Source: Thalassovita sp. (GTDB lineage: Bacteria; Bacteroidota; Bacteroidia; Cytophagales; Flammeovirgaceae). From it: 64,000 bases of DNA. The stretch lies in the NCBI GenBank assembly GCA_002729595.1, contig PBYL01000192.1:1-64000 (forward strand), read 5' to 3'. Positions 3,320 through 38,783 of the stretch are shown piece by piece (position 1 is the first letter of the stretch; the number at the start of each line of letters is the position of its first letter). The notes below the pieces were generated by a model that saw nothing but the letters and a program-made list of their open reading frames with translations, was not told the DNA's origin and made no database searches. The position numbers and the translations under genes were made by a program.

Positions 3320-3457
3320 TACAAATGATTTAACAAGTTGCTAAACCAATCGTACCCGGTTGTGAAATTTTAAAAAATACTCAGAATGAAAATTAAGGAA
3401 ACCCTTTTATTCAAGTTGGTATTCTTTGCTTTTTCTCCCGAAAGCTACGAATGAAAA

Positions 3458-3625
3458 TGTCGGGCAGGTCTTCTGACTCGCTCACTTTTATCAGCCTTCC
3501 CATTCTTTTTAACAAACAGTGGCAATGGATTGATAAAAGCTATTATGAGCTCACAGCAGCGGGAACTGTCCAGGATTTACACCTGATTCCCTTTTAATTT
3601 TCTCCTCCTGATGGATTTGAAAAAC
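3458..3625 (-). promoter_or_regulatory. cobalamin (AdoCbl) riboswitch
   Basis: Read on the minus strand, the element contains the conserved B12-box AGCGAGTCAGAAGACCTGCC (3463-3482), the internal GCCACTG segment (about 3520), and the 5' core AAAGGGAATCAGGTGTAAATC followed by GGACAGTTCCCGCTGCTGTGAG (about 3555-3597). These are hallmarks of the cobalamin riboswitch family in the correct order. It lies in the leader of the BtuB-like receptor, so AdoCbl binding would be expected to repress uptake. Exact ends are approximate because the P1 helix is not certain. Confidence 0.95.
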
Positions 3626-3753
3626 CTTACATAGTTCAAAGCTGAGAAAGATTTGTGAGGAAAAAAAGTAAACGATCTAAATTTTTTCCTTTATAAATGT
3701 TGTTGTCTAGATAATGGAATTACTTAATTATATCAGGCATTTTTTATTTCATA

Positions 3754-17630: not shown

Positions 17631-18464
17631 TCAATTATTTTCTTCACCTAACCATATTAAAGAATTTATGATTAATTTATTTTGCTCAGGGTTGTCGAAT
17701 GTATGAGAAAGGGTTTGATTTGTTCCATTTTCATAGTCCATGTCATTATGTCCCATGTTTAAATAGATCATTCTATAATTTTTATTAGTCCATACCACTG
17801 GGTAGTAACCATCATTCCATATTTCAGAAGCTTTTGGGCCAGTTCCTAATGGAAAACTTTGGGGGTCAATTGAAAGTAAAATGTCGATATCTGGGTTTTT
17901 TGTGAGGTCATTTTGCCAATTATACCATTCGTTGGGAGATGCTGTAATTGTATTAGCTAAACCTTGAGTTGCAGGATGATTTTTATTCTCGATTTTTAAA
18001 ATAGCTGAAGTTGGTCGCCAAGTATTATTGGAATATTCGCCTGAACCTAGAAATTCATTATGATACCAATCCCAATCTTGATTGTAATCTGAAGGAGTTA
18101 ATGCAAATGCTGAAAAATGGAAGCCCATCCACGAACCTCCATTCTTCATATAAGTTTCAAATGCTTCTCTTTGGTTTTTATCTTCTGGTCTGGTATCTAG
18201 AAAGATAACTAGATCAAACTTGTTTAAATACTTGGTATTCAGCTTAGTCCAATCGTTTGTACTCTTATAAGTAAAATGATTTTCTCTACTCGTTTTAGCA
18301 AACCATTTATTTGCCTCTTCTACAAAACTGATATGCGCCAAATCGTTTTTGGCAGTATAAAAGGCTATAACTTTAAACTTGGAATGGTTGCTTTGTGCTG
18401 ATGATAAATGACAGATCGAAAAGAAAAAAATGAGTATTAATGCTAATTTGAATGTGATTTTCAT
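17631..18464 (-). CDS. secreted ThuA-like protein
   Basis: 277 residues with a signal peptide cleaved near residue 23 (LSSAQ). The ThuA (trehalose-utilisation-like, class I glutamine amidotransferase fold) domain spans the rest: FKVIAFYTAKNDLAHISFVE, DLVIFLDTRPEDKNQREAFE, YMKNGGSWMGFHFSAF, and a C-terminal PVVWTNKNYRMIYLNMGHND. ThuA proteins act with Gfo/Idh oxidoreductases in modifying oxidised sugars. This one is isolated; a second ThuA domain is fused to DUF6807 in the uronate operon at 51.7 kb. Confidence 0.88.
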   Translation of the reverse strand: MKITFKLALILIFFFSICHLSSAQSNHSKFKVIAFYTAKNDLAHISFVEEANKWFAKTSRENHFTYKSTNDWTKLNTKYLNKFDLVIFLDTRPEDKNQREAFETYMKNGGSWMGFHFSAFALTPSDYNQDWDWYHNEFLGSGEYSNNTWRPTSAILKIENKNHPATQGLANTITASPNEWYNWQNDLTKNPDIDILLSIDPQSFPLGTGPKASEIWNDGYYPVVWTNKNYRMIYLNMGHNDMDYENGTNQTLSHTFDNPEQNKLIINSLIWLGEENN

Positions 18465-34451: not shown

Positions 34452-35603
34452 ATGACAAAAAAATCCCTATTAATAATCTGTCTAAGTATACTTAGCATAG
34501 TTTCATGTCAGGAAGCAAAAAGTCCAGAAAATGCTACTGTTAGGGCAACTAAAACTCACGAAGTAAGTAAAATTGTTTACTCTCCAGATAGTACACAAGA
34601 AGTTAAAAACATCATTTTTCTTGTAGGTGATGGCATGGGAATTACACAAGTTTATGCAGGCATGACAGCCAACCATGGCAAACTGTTTATTGAAAATATG
34701 CCAGTAATGGGTATGAGCAAAACTTACTCTTCTGATAAATATATTACCGATTCAGCTTCGGGTGCAACTGCTTTTTCAGCAGGTAAAAAAACATACAATG
34801 GAGCAATTGGTGTAGGCCCAGATGGTAAACCCATTGAAACTATTCTTGAAATCGCAGAAAAAAATGGTCTTGCAACTGGTCTGGTGGCAACTAGCTCGAT
34901 CACACACGCTACTCCAGCTTCTTTTATAGCTCACCAACCAAAAAGAAGCATGGAAGAAGAAATTGCTGCTGATTTTCTTAAAACTGATATAGATGTATTT
35001 ATTGGTGGTGGTAAAAAATTCTTTGCTGATAGAGAAGACGGAAAAGACCTTACTGTCGAATTAAAAGACAAAGGTTACCAAGTTGTGTATTCAATGGAAG
35101 ACCTTGCCCCTATTAAATCTGGAAAAGTGGCTGCCTTAACTGCTGAAAACGAAAACCCTCCCTATTCTCACGGTAGAGAAGATATGCTACCAAATGCTGC
35201 TGAAAAAGCGATAGAGCTCTTAAGCCAAAGTGAGAAAGGATTTTTTTTAATGGTAGAAGGTTCTCAAATTGATTGGGGTGGACATAAAAACGATATTCAA
35301 TATGTAGTAGATGAGATGCTAGATTTTGACAGAACCATCGCTAAAGCATTAGAATTTGCTGCAAAAGACAAACACACTTTGGTAGTAGTTACAGCTGACC
35401 ACGAAACTGGAGGTTTAACTTTAAATGGAGGCTCAATTGAAAAAGGTGAAGTAAATGCCATGTTTACTACCGGGAGTCACACAGCTGTATCAGTTCCAGT
35501 ATTTGCATTTGGCCCTCAAGCAGAACAGTTTTCTGGTTATTTTGAAAACACTGCCATCTTCGACAAGTTCTTAAATGCATATCAATTCCAAAATCAACAA
35601 TAA
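34452..35603 (+). CDS. phoA: alkaline phosphatase (lipoprotein)
   Basis: 383 residues from the ATG at 34452 (a GTG directly before it is also possible). Lipobox SIVSC (Cys19). The PhoA-type active site is intact: NIIFLVGDGMG with the metal-binding Asp60, nucleophile Ser101 in ITDSASGATAFSAGKKT, SQIDWGGHKND and the zinc-binding TADHETGG. It releases phosphate from organic esters outside the cytoplasm. It stands alone with a strong terminator; no Pho box can be assigned in this phylum by eye. The symbol is given for similarity to the PhoA family. Confidence 0.9.
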   Translation: MTKKSLLIICLSILSIVSCQEAKSPENATVRATKTHEVSKIVYSPDSTQEVKNIIFLVGDGMGITQVYAGMTANHGKLFIENMPVMGMSKTYSSDKYITDSASGATAFSAGKKTYNGAIGVGPDGKPIETILEIAEKNGLATGLVATSSITHATPASFIAHQPKRSMEEEIAADFLKTDIDVFIGGGKKFFADREDGKDLTVELKDKGYQVVYSMEDLAPIKSGKVAALTAENENPPYSHGREDMLPNAAEKAIELLSQSEKGFFLMVEGSQIDWGGHKNDIQYVVDEMLDFDRTIAKALEFAAKDKHTLVVVTADHETGGLTLNGGSIEKGEVNAMFTTGSHTAVSVPVFAFGPQAEQFSGYFENTAIFDKFLNAYQFQNQQ

Positions 35604-35606
35604 TAT

Positions 35607-35651
35607 AAAAAAAGAAAAGAGTAAATTTAAATTCTACTCTTTTCTTTTTTT
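35607..35651 (+). terminator. intrinsic terminator of the alkaline phosphatase gene
   Basis: Seventeen-base arms (AAAAAAAGAAAAGAGTA and TACTCTTTTCTTTTTTT) are perfect inverted repeats around an 11-base loop, beginning 4 bases after the stop codon and ending in a T run. Confidence 0.9.
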
Positions 35652-35871
35652 ACCCATATTTTATTATTTACAGCTCAACCTAACGGTTAATAAAGTTTAA
35701 GAGTTATAAATTTTAAAAAAATTATTAAAAAAGAATATTCTTTTATTGAAGATAATCATACGCTCACCCTTTTACTTTATATCTACTATTTTTTTGGCAA
35801 CTTACATCCTCGGCAATCCAAAACTGTGATTTTTAGCCCATTTAGTTGGTTTAGCATCCCAAAAAATAAAG

Positions 35872-35900
35872 TTTGTACATTGTTATAATACTAGCTTTGT
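35872..35900 (+). promoter_or_regulatory. possible promoter of the 79-88 aa small protein
   Basis: TTTG (35872-35875) and TAGCTTTG (35893-35900) resemble the -33 and -7 elements, though the 17-bp spacer is shorter than usual. The rest of 35652-35960 is AT-rich with no other element. Confidence 0.4.
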
Positions 35901-35991
35901 TTCATTTGAAAGCAAATAAAGCTTAACGGTATATTCTATTCAAAAAAAAACACCGTTTTCAATGCAACATATCAAACTAAACATACTAACA

Positions 35992-36228
35992 ATGATCAGT
36001 AAATTTATAACGCTACCATTTTCAGTAAAACTCAACAAACTACTACTTGAAGCACAATACATGGGGTCTGCTAAAATTGATGATACAGTTTGCGTACTCT
36101 ACTTATATGAGAAAGAATATTATGAAATTATTTATACTGACGATATGAATACTATTCTTTCCATTGATCTTGCTAAACCAAATCATCTTCCATACTTCTG
36201 CGATTTTGATTTAAGAAATCTGCTTTAA
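35992..36228 (+). CDS. small hypothetical protein
   Basis: 78 residues from the ATG at 35992 (MISKFITLPFSVKLNKLLL); an ATG at 35962 gives 88 residues. The sequence contains regularly spaced Asp/Tyr-rich strands (VCVLYLYEKEYYEIIYTDD) ending DFDLRNLL. No signal peptide or known family. A promoter-like sequence lies 90-120 bp upstream and codon use resembles that of neighbours, so the gene is probably real. Confidence 0.55.
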   Translation: MISKFITLPFSVKLNKLLLEAQYMGSAKIDDTVCVLYLYEKEYYEIIYTDDMNTILSIDLAKPNHLPYFCDFDLRNLL

Positions 36229-36338
36229 GGAAGATATCTAACCAAATATTGTATGTATTTACAGTTATTAGGAATATAAAAAAGTTTCATTAGCATTTGT
36301 TATGAAATTGTAAAGATTTAATTATTTAGTTTTGAAAG

Positions 36339-36415
36339 ATGAAGGTCGGTTTTCCGATTCTTCATGATTGGATTCAATTGGCTGGGCAGCAATCGTTTTG
36401 TTGCCTAGCTTCGTT
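36339..36415 (+). ncRNA. two-stem structured RNA or leader upstream of the RimB-RimK operon
   Basis: Stem 1 (36339-36365): ATGAAGGTCGG pairs with CCGATTCTTCAT with a TTTT loop and one bulged base (11 pairs). Stem 2 (36381-36409): GCTGGGCAGCAA pairs with TTGTTGCCTAGC (12 pairs, two G-U) around TCGTT, followed by TTCGTTTTTA. The G/C content is far above the surrounding AT-rich DNA. It may be a small RNA with its own terminator or an attenuator for the operon 130 bp downstream. I do not recognise a known riboswitch. Confidence 0.5.
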
Positions 36416-36547
36416 TTTAGGCCTTTCTTATTTAATTCCTTCTCCCCCTCTTCTTTCTTTTTTTCAAAAAAACATCGCAAATTCCTTTGGATAATTTAAT
36501 TAAGTATTAATATTAAAATTCTTTATGTCTCTATTGATTTATTAAAT

Positions 36548-37018
36548 TTGTTAAAAGAAAGAAGTCTTTTGAATAATAAACTAGTAATTGGAAGTCTGGA
36601 TAAAGCTGATTTTCCTGACTTAAATCTTTTTGATATTCCCTGCAAAATCGACACGGGGGCAGAAACATCAGCAATACACTGCCATAAGGTTAAGCTAATT
36701 GAAAGACAGGGAAAAGAAATAATCACCTTCTATTTGCTGGATCCTGAACATCCCCAATACAATGGGATAGAGTTCAGTTCCGAAAATTTTAGAGAGAAAA
36801 GAATCAAAAGTTCCTTCGGGCACACAGAATATAGATACGTGATTAAAAGTAGGATTAAACTATTTGGTAAAATTATCAAAATTGATCTTACGCTTTCAGA
36901 CAGGGAACAAATGAAGTATCCGGTTTTACTGGGTAAAAAACTTCTTAAAAATAAGTTCCTCGTTGATGTGAGCCAGAAAAATTTATCTTATAATCTTAAA
37001 AATATAAACAAAGGCTAA
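36548..37018 (+). CDS. RimB-type retropepsin-like (ATP-dependent zinc protease family) protein
   Basis: 156 residues from a TTG at 36548; upstream ATG codons are followed by stops in frame, so the start must be TTG here or at 36569. The aspartic-protease-like motif [12 protein letters not shown] (about 33-44) and [33 protein letters not shown] place it in the PF05618 retropepsin-like group, named RimB where it is encoded beside RimK in Pseudomonas. It may trim glutamates that RimK adds. The stop codon overlaps the rimK start (TAATG). Confidence 0.85.
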
Positions 37019-37929
37019 TGAAAATTGCCGTTTTATCACGAAATAAGAAATTATACTCAACACAGCGTTTAGTTGAGGCTATCAAAAAAAGAGGACACGA
37101 AGCGGAGGTAATTAACCATACCAACTGTTATGTAGTAATCGAAAAAGACAGACCTAATGTGTATATTGGTGACCATGAAATTACAGGTATTGATGCCATA
37201 ATTCCTAGAATTGGTTCTTCTGTTACATTTTATGGAACTGCTATTATTCGCCAATTTGAAATGCAGAAGGTTTTTACTACAGTAAGTAGTTTGGCTTTGG
37301 TGAGAGCCAGAGATAAGCTGAGAAGTCTTCAGATTCTATCTAAAGCAGGTGTTGGAATTCCTAAAACTGCATTTGCCAAATATCCGGGTGATGTACAAAC
37401 ATTGATTAAGCAAGTAGGTGGCGCGCCACTTATTATTAAATTACTCGAAGGTACTCAAGGTCTTGGAGTTGTACTTGCTGAAACTCAAAAGGCTGCTAAA
37501 TCAGTTATTCAAGCATTTTACGGGCTTGACGCTAACATTTTGATACAAGAGTTTATTAAAGAAGCAAAAGGTGCAGACATTAGAGCTTTTGTAATAAATG
37601 GAAAAGTAGTTGGTGCCATGATGAGACAAGGGCAAGAAGGCGAATTTAGATCTAACCTACACAGAGGTGGCGTTGGAACCCCTATTAAACTGAAGCGTGA
37701 AGAAAAGTCAGTGGCAATTAAGGCTGCTCAAGCTTTAGGTCTTCATATCGCTGGTGTAGATATGCTTCGCTCAGAAAGAGGTCCATTGGTGATAGAAGTA
37801 AATGCTTCACCTGGTTTAGAAGGTATTGAAAAAGCAACCAAAATCGATATTGCCGATAAAATTGTCGAGTTTGTAGAACAATCTGTGCATCATACAGATT
37901 CTAAAAAGAAAGATAAAATTGGTGTATAA
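37018..37929 (+). CDS. rimK: RimK family alpha-L-glutamate ligase
   Basis: 303 residues. The ATP-grasp features are visible: PFVIIK-like strand in [23 protein letters not shown], acidic metal ligands near [27 protein letters not shown]. The start [20 protein letters not shown] and [20 protein letters not shown] are typical of RimK, which adds glutamate to the C terminus of ribosomal protein S6 or makes poly-alpha-glutamate. It overlaps the RimB-type gene by 1 bp and ends at a strong terminator, so the two form an operon for adding and removing glutamates. Confidence 0.92.
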
Positions 37930-37934
37930 ATAGT

Positions 37935-37962
37935 AAGGCTGGACGAAAAATCCAGCCTTTTT
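37935..37962 (+). terminator. intrinsic terminator after rimK
   Basis: AAGGCTGGA and TCCAGCCTT form a 9-bp stem with a 7-base loop, followed by TTT. It starts 6 bases after the rimK stop codon, and reaches the end of the convergent sigma-factor gene. Confidence 0.9.
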
Positions 37963-38551
37963 AATTGTTATATCCTTTAATCTTTTTATAGGTTTGGTGT
38001 ATTCTGGTTATTTTTTCTCTTGCTCTTTTTAACCTCATTTTTACTGCACTTTCTCCCAAACCCATAATTTCTTGTATTTCTTTTAAAGAAAGCTTCTGAC
38101 TATACTTTAATAGTAAAATCATTTTGTCTTGAGGTGGCAATTGCTTCATCAATTCTTCTAGCAATTCCATTGTTAAGTCTTCGTCTAGCGAATGGTCTAC
38201 ATCTAATTCAGATATATCTTCAAACTGCTCAAAAAGCTCTTCAGAAAGCTTTACATGGTATTTTTTGCGGTTTTTTCTGAGGTAATCTAGGCAAGTATTA
38301 TTGGCAATAGTATATAACCATGGAGAAAATCTGCCTCCAGATTTAAAGGCATTTAAATGGAGAAATAATTTTATAAAAATATCTTGTGTGAGATCGCGTG
38401 CTAGCTCCTCATCCTTTACATATGCTCTGCATCTTTTGTATATTTTTGTTTCATATCGCTTAGATATCTCATTGAAACAAGTCGTATCAAACCGATAAGT
38501 AAGACGATTTATTATTTCCTCATCTTTCAGTTGATGCACATTACTATTCAT
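37961..38551 (-). CDS. ECF-type RNA polymerase sigma factor
   Basis: 196 residues. Region 2 contains ARDLTQDIFIKLFLHLNAFK and PWLYTIANNTCLDYLRK; region 4 contains LPPQDKMILLLKYSQKLSLK, EIQEIMGLGESAVKMRLKRA. These are hallmarks of the sigma-70 ECF family. No anti-sigma factor of the usual membrane type lies next to it. A short, Lys/Asp-rich 50-residue protein is encoded divergently (38631-38783), and a palindrome overlaps the predicted sigma promoter. Confidence 0.92.
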   Translation of the reverse strand: MNSNVHQLKDEEIINRLTYRFDTTCFNEISKRYETKIYKRCRAYVKDEELARDLTQDIFIKLFLHLNAFKSGGRFSPWLYTIANNTCLDYLRKNRKKYHVKLSEELFEQFEDISELDVDHSLDEDLTMELLEELMKQLPPQDKMILLLKYSQKLSLKEIQEIMGLGESAVKMRLKRAREKITRIHQTYKKIKGYNN

Positions 38552-38561
38552 ATCAGTAGTT

Positions 38562-38592
38562 CAAAATTTGACGCATCGTATGTGACTTCAAA
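38562..38592 (-). promoter_or_regulatory. predicted promoter of the ECF sigma gene
   Basis: On the minus strand TTTG (38589-38592) is followed after 19 bp by AAATTTTG (38562-38569), a one-mismatch TAnnTTTG. Transcription would start just a few bases before the ATG at 38551, giving an almost leaderless mRNA. Confidence 0.45.
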
Positions 38593-38606
38593 ATAAAATC
38601 ACGTAC
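38578..38606. promoter_or_regulatory. inverted repeat between the ECF sigma gene and the small divergent gene
   Basis: GTATGTGA (38578-38585) and TCACGTAC (38599-38606) are inverted repeats with one mismatch and a 13-base spacer. The repeat overlaps the -33 element of the sigma gene. It may be an operator controlling both divergent genes. Confidence 0.35.
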
Positions 38607-38630
38607 AATAATAAATTTAAATTCAAGATC

Positions 38631-38783
38631 ATGAAAACACAAAAAAATATCCAAAAGAAAAATAAGAACAACAGATCTATACCTTCTGATGATTTTTATG
38701 GTGATTCTTTTCTTGACGATGAAAAAGAATACACTATAAAACCAAAAGGTAGCAGAAAAAATTACTTTTCTGATAATGAATAG
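38631..38783 (+). CDS. small charged protein (50 aa) divergent from the sigma factor
   Basis: ATG at 38631 to TAG at 38781-38783 encodes 50 residues: a very basic start (KTQKNIQKKNKNNRSIPSDD) followed by an acidic, aromatic part (FYGDSFLDDEKEYTIKPKG) and SRKNYFSDNE. The reading frame has normal Bacteroidota codon use, its own hairpin terminator (38813-38862) and no competing gene on the plus strand. The longer minus-strand frame across it is a shadow. Unknown function; a role linked to the sigma factor is only suggested by position. Confidence 0.6.
   Translation: MKTQKNIQKKNKNNRSIPSDDFYGDSFLDDEKEYTIKPKGSRKNYFSDNE

Follow-up and report, generated by a model that had tools for sequence, protein, structure and literature searches.

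The locus upstream of the RimB- and RimK-like genes

The window analysed here, a stretch of 64,000 nucleotides, belongs to a draft genome of Thalassovita sp. (G000; 8.0 Mb in 487 contigs, completeness 77.7). The nearest relative of this genome, G001, is a member of the same genus (g1), and its assembly is 92% complete. Three genes upstream of the element under study are common to the window and G001. From the look of their translations we take them to be a serine hydrolase-like ORF, an alkaline phosphatase-like ORF and a small ORF. The small ORF (35995–36228, plus strand; 77 codons from the ATG at 35995) is kept in G001 and, lying outside the RNA, provides context for it. No Pfam family was found in it; weak possible relatives were seen in G001 and G050. 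The genes on the other side of the element encode RimB- and RimK-like proteins. The RimB-like gene (36548–37018, plus strand; Pfam Zn_protease, PF05618) is the downstream neighbour; in our judgement, the element does not control it. Inspection of its 5' end showed that the listed TTG start at 36548 overlaps a -7-like box, TAAATTTG, at 36543–36550. The actual start of RimB may be an in-frame TTG at 36569, and a promoter may separate the element from the gene. A bidirectional terminator was detected by a terminator scan at 37935–37959, directly 3' of RimK.

The initial annotation had placed two strong stems at 36339–36415, and both are indeed present there. The surrounding 96-nt stretch (36330–36425) folds with an energy of -35.8 kcal/mol, compared to -21.75 ± 2.83 (mean and sd) for 200 dinucleotide-shuffled sequences (z = -4.96), none of which folded as well as the real sequence. 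In the fold of the predicted 79-nt transcript, stem-loop 1 (36339–36365, plus strand) is a 27-nt hairpin of 11 pairs at the predicted 5' end, and it is followed by a weak mini-hairpin of 5 pairs (36366–36379, plus strand). A conserved core of 18 bases, ATGATTGGATTCAATTGG, lies between the stems at 36364–36381 on the same strand. The second stem, according to both the terminator scan and the fold, is a terminator hairpin of 13 pairs (36380–36410, plus strand). Its tail (36411–36418, plus strand) consists of TCG and a T-run of five at 36414–36418, and the T-run is displaced by TCG in both copies of the class to which this element belongs (class B, see below). The scan found six terminator-like sites in the 35500–38700 region against 1.6 expected, and the 13-pair stem 2 is one of them. 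The fold and the alignment with G001 together outline a predicted class B small RNA of about 79–80 nt at 36339–36418 on the plus strand.

A Bacteroidota -7 box, TAGTTTTG, was located by script immediately upstream, at 36327–36334 on the plus strand. Its consensus, TAnnTTTG, is that given for Bacteroides promoters in the part of the source consulted, together with a TTTG near -33 (PMC7366714), and the corresponding passage on Flavobacterium places the same box at -12 to -5 (PMC9723704). If the box spans these positions here as well, the predicted +1 is A36339, which is the first base of stem 1. No canonical -33 TTTG stands at its customary distance before this box, as judged by inspection of the window sequence. 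The TAnnTTTG motif occurs at a frequency of 57 per 128,000 strand positions in the window. The copy in G001 (G001B) carries TAGCTTTG at the equivalent place, and the difference falls on a free position of the consensus.

The BLAST match in G001 covers 36246–36427 at 81% (E 5.6e-39). The box and the RNA (36327–36417) are identical in 81 of 91 aligned columns (89%), compared to 151/240 in the small ORF, 57/98 in the gap between this ORF and the box, and 62/132 after the element. Since the identity is confined to the box and the RNA and falls on both sides of them, the conserved block is delimited as an RNA gene would be. The sequence changes in stem-loop 1 of G001B preserve its pairing. Within the element, conservation is highest in the bases between the two stems, a property that is not visible to a reader of a single sequence.

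Seven copies of the element in two classes

A model of the core plus the terminator (R1) was run over 390 genomes of the order. It produced matches at E 0.05 or better in 35 genomes, of which only the seven places that scored above 60 bits were accepted. These are the class B copies in G000 and G001 and the class A copies in G000, G001, G002, G005 and G010 (a copy is named below by its genome and class). The training of R1 took in five of the seven places, with G001A and G002A left out. The next place, in G378 (47.5 bits), was not accepted. Its core is partly similar, and its terminator lies behind a lipoprotein-like ORF that neighbours a SusD-like one. Among those viewed of the 46 match rows, places with 37.8 bits or less had a terminator but no core, or did not have the design at all. 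In a sample of 395 genomes of the phylum, only the source genome itself was found at E 1e-4. The exact core combined with a T-run was also searched for as a pattern in the GTDB 220 genome collection. It occurs in 65 stretches, of which the 22 best-folding ones were viewed; members are L151, L168, L179 and L206, and L184 turned out to be the end of a coding frame plus a terminator. The six such stretches in viral contigs do not have the design.

A second model, R2, was built from class A only and used in a sensitive search of all 18 genomes of the family. With E-values of 1.2e-24 or better it recovered all five class A places, and it found no convincing copy in the other 13 genomes. Hence, of the 18 family genomes, 5 contain class A, and class B is restricted to genus g1. 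R2, which was not trained on class B, found the two class B copies at E 4.2e-4 and 3.5e-3. Because probable chance places score similarly (1.8e-3 and 4.9e-3), the kinship of the two classes rests on their identical core and the order of their parts and not on the R2 score. The place at E 1.8e-3 (G002:C1:7062423) overlaps the end of an ORF and is devoid of the core.

The first 12 bases of the core, ATGATTGGATTC, are common to all seven copies. The full 18-base core is exact in both class B copies and in the class A copies of G005 and G010, where it stands unchanged in another genus and is flanked by different stems. The locus in these two genomes lies between what we take, from the look of the translations, to be an aminotransferase ORF and a thyA ORF. 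In the second copy of the source genome (G000A, at G000:C130), the 18-mer differs by one base.

The class A alignment (A4) begins with an invariant 5' block, TTTTAGTGTTAGGTTAAATAAGT, which is followed by stem 1, the core AUAUGAUUGGAUUC, a short variable stretch and the terminator. Stem 1 has a constant base (AUAAG/CUUAU) and a variable top, and the terminator has 13 pairs, of which the outer 8 are constant and the inner 5 variable. As many as 118 of 120 cells are paired, with the two unpaired ones both in stem 1. Five pairs are changed on both sides, and compensatory changes are present in both stems. The covariation score, which was calculated from only five related sequences with the structure drawn from one of them (G002A), is 0.325 versus 0.192 in shuffles, and none of 500 shuffles reaches it; six slid controls gave at most 0.113. 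The stems of class B differ from those of class A in sequence and follow in the same order. In the terminator stems of the two classes, 55 of 55 cells pair despite the sequence differences. Between the window and G001B, stem 1 contains one-sided changes that keep the pairs, and stem 2 is identical outside its loop. The compensatory changes that the initial annotation proposed to look for in relatives were therefore found in class A (the five both-sided pairs), and class B, with one-sided changes in two sequences, points weakly in the same direction.

The class A copies carry a different box, TAGTGTTA, at the matching place. It departs from TAnnTTTG and is a poorer match, and the start predicted from it is two bases before stem 1. 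Its use may depend on an activator or a different sigma factor. As a regulon motif, the promoter block was rejected: it occurs at 25 places with two or fewer mismatches in eight genomes, compared to 25 for the reversed control. Among the 23 of these 25 places that were viewed (all except L285 and L288), the RNA is present only at the five class A places.

Gene neighbourhoods and rival explanations

The genes downstream of the copies vary, and RimB is found in the window only. Judging by the look of the translations, the next gene is presumably a lipoprotein-type ORF in G001B, thyA in G005A and G010A, and an acetyl-CoA hydrolase-type ORF in G002A. G000A and G001A face a convergent gene, so that cis-control is ruled out at these two copies. 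As the downstream genes differ from copy to copy, downstream cis-control cannot explain the element. Upstream, four of the five class A copies have what appears from its translation to be an aminotransferase ORF.

Judged by sequence, the element seems to possess the features of an intergenic sRNA, namely a -7 box, a terminator of its own and changing neighbours. The best explanation, which we consider probable, is that it represents a free-standing small RNA gene of about 79 nt and belongs to a small, probably trans-acting family, as far as searched without a name, in a group of Flammeovirgaceae. Transcription would proceed from the sigma-A type -7 box, start at about A36339 and end at the second hairpin. 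The resulting RNA of about 79 nt would consist of a 5' stem-loop, the core (AUGAUUGGAUUC plus a few bases) and an intrinsic terminator. Class B would be a second gene in genus g1, probably a duplicate that has acquired new stems. The core would most likely base-pair with mRNAs in trans.

Alternatively, the two hairpins could form an ordinary terminator region, or 3' UTR, of the small-ORF transcript and have no RNA function of their own. This would agree with the upstream gene order being kept together with the element in G001 and with no other terminator being listed between the stop of the ORF at 36228 and the element. However, a plain terminator has no need of a conserved core or a -7 box, and the gap between the ORF and the box is poorly conserved (57/98) whereas the inter-stem core is identical. 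Furthermore, the core and the design recur away from the small ORF in five genomes. We consider this explanation unlikely; a 3' UTR-derived sRNA is possible.

The initial annotation regarded the element as an attenuator or a terminated small RNA and suggested RNA-level control of the RimB-RimK operon. As a 5' leader of RimB-RimK, it would stop transcription at the second stem, before RimB, unless a signal prevents this. The element does lie on the same strand as RimB, 130 bases upstream of the listed TTG, and its hairpin 2 is a good terminator; as regards an alternative (antiterminator) fold, the analysis covered the MFE and centroid folds of the 96-nt stretch. However, no RimB was found downstream of the element in G001 or anywhere in the G001 assembly (92% complete), and the next gene downstream of G001B differs from RimB and is about 750 bases further away. 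With R1, the element was found in only 1 of 30 RimB loci, the window's own, and it is absent from the other 29. In addition, the class A copies are followed by genes other than RimB or by convergent ones, and the TAAATTTG box could start the RimB mRNA downstream of the element. On the basis of the synteny in G001 and the 30 RimB loci, we reject the leader, which is very unlikely. Control of RimB-RimK at the RNA level is likewise not supported, as the second copy of the element stands beside unrelated genes and is convergent with them in two genomes. Of the two forms proposed for the element, the terminated small RNA has held up, whereas the attenuator has not. The position of the element beside RimB-RimK is most likely a coincidence. 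In Pseudomonas, RimK is controlled by RimA, RimB and cyclic-di-GMP, as far as the excerpts of the reports on RimABK describe it (PMC7343187, PMC4741518). That system shares its RimB/RimK-type genes with the window, but the RNA described here appears to be unrelated to the pair.

The idea that the core is a tiny translated ORF of a leader-peptide or small-protein mRNA, for which one could cite that it reads MIGFNW in several copies, that its ATG is present in all seven and that in most of them the frame, read by eye, extends over 9 to 14 codons without a stop, is hardly credible, as the first four codons show no synonymous third-base changes, the changes hit codon 5 (AAT, TAT, ATG) and codon 6 (TGG, GGG), and the frame length is not conserved, with a one-base loop difference shifting the frame in class B.

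The core, a candidate target and known small RNAs

In the small RNA gene that we favour, the core has been kept while both stems have changed, as is typical of sites of pairing or binding. According to the folds, the core is open in G000A and G001A. In the window copy, G001B, G005A and G010A, most of it is predicted to be in the weak mini-hairpin with the loop exposed, and in G002A it is partly folded in a different small stem. The mini-hairpin was rejected as a conserved structure: four of its five pairs are invariant, one pair is broken in one of five sequences, and covariation does not support it.

Exact complements of the first 12 bases of the core occur 21 times in the five genomes, and 7 of these are the RNA genes themselves; no target gene common to all five genomes was found among them. 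One stretch, CAATTGAATCCAATC, lies in G000 (C405, ~3444–3460; L232) and G001 (C589, ~17757–17774; L105) about 107–112 bases before the start of a regulator gene, which we call NtrC-type from the look of its translation. It is perfectly complementary to the class B core over 17 and 16 bases. The stretch comes after a well conserved block, the sequence around it aligns poorly, and the complement is absent from the NtrC-type orthologues of G002, G005 and G010. The 18-mer within one mismatch is found at nine places in 385 other genomes of the order. If these genomes are taken, as an estimate, to comprise roughly 1.9 Gb, about 0.07 such places are expected in the two g1 genomes. The other strand of the CAATTGAATCCAATC place reads as the core followed by a T-tailed hairpin, and so this place might be a third copy without stem 1. 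Searches of ten family genomes found the NtrC-type regulator at E 1e-120 or better in all five that contain the sRNA and in none of the other five. We regard the NtrC-type leader as a candidate target of the class B core, and as a lead only. That the core of a new two-class sRNA family pairs with this leader is, in its entirety, a tentative and rather doubtful proposal.

A further sRNA-like block, AAGCTCCATACAnnCAACCAGC, followed by a hairpin and a T-run, is conserved upstream of the NtrC-type ORF in four of the five genomes looked at (L235 in G000:C405, L236 in G001:C589, L238 in G005:C80 and L239 in G010:C186). Its stem differs between genera.

The statement of the initial annotation that the element matches no known riboswitch is correct, as no Rfam family reaches its gathering score at the element. 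A search of 35900–36700 against Rfam release 15 at E up to 10 returned one irrelevant match (E 0.94). Ten further loci, which included the class A copies, G001B and four NtrC-type upstream regions with the AAGCTCCATACAnnCAACCAGC block, gave no Rfam matches. The sole match at gathering score in the window is a cobalamin riboswitch at 3446–3644 on the minus strand (105 bits).

The closest parallel by description is FopS / GibS, a small RNA family of Bacteroides thetaiotaomicron (PMC11697453). The excerpted account of that family describes short RNAs (~65–70 nt for FopS) that are mostly intergenic and multicopy, share one conserved seed stretch, and have a canonical -7 promoter and an intrinsic terminator; they come from the same phylum. 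However, FopS is described there as starting with the single-stranded R1 seed, whereas the predicted RNA starts with a stem-loop in all seven copies. FopS has 14 copies according to the same account, and one or two per genome were found here. The comparison is one of descriptions, and we do not claim that the RNA belongs to FopS. Rfp18 and other transcripts of Flavobacterium psychrophilum are likewise Bacteroidota sRNAs with conservation within a group and strong predicted folds, a likeness again by description in the part of the source consulted (PMC9723704), from which we claim no link. Full-text literature searches for a small RNA in Flammeovirgaceae or Flammeovirga, for a non-coding RNA in Flexithrix, and for the core sequence itself found none.

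In summary, what the genomes contain is an sRNA-like gene family that is real, conserved, narrow in range, ordinary in kind and, as far as searched, new. The inviting link to RimK is corrected as probably wrong. The presence of a defined class A RNA gene in a cultured host, Flexithrix dorotheae DSM 6795, makes its expression directly testable. If the pairing with the NtrC-type leader is true, class B and its 16–17-nt site in genus g1 would constitute a recently wired circuit that adjoins another conserved sRNA-like block.
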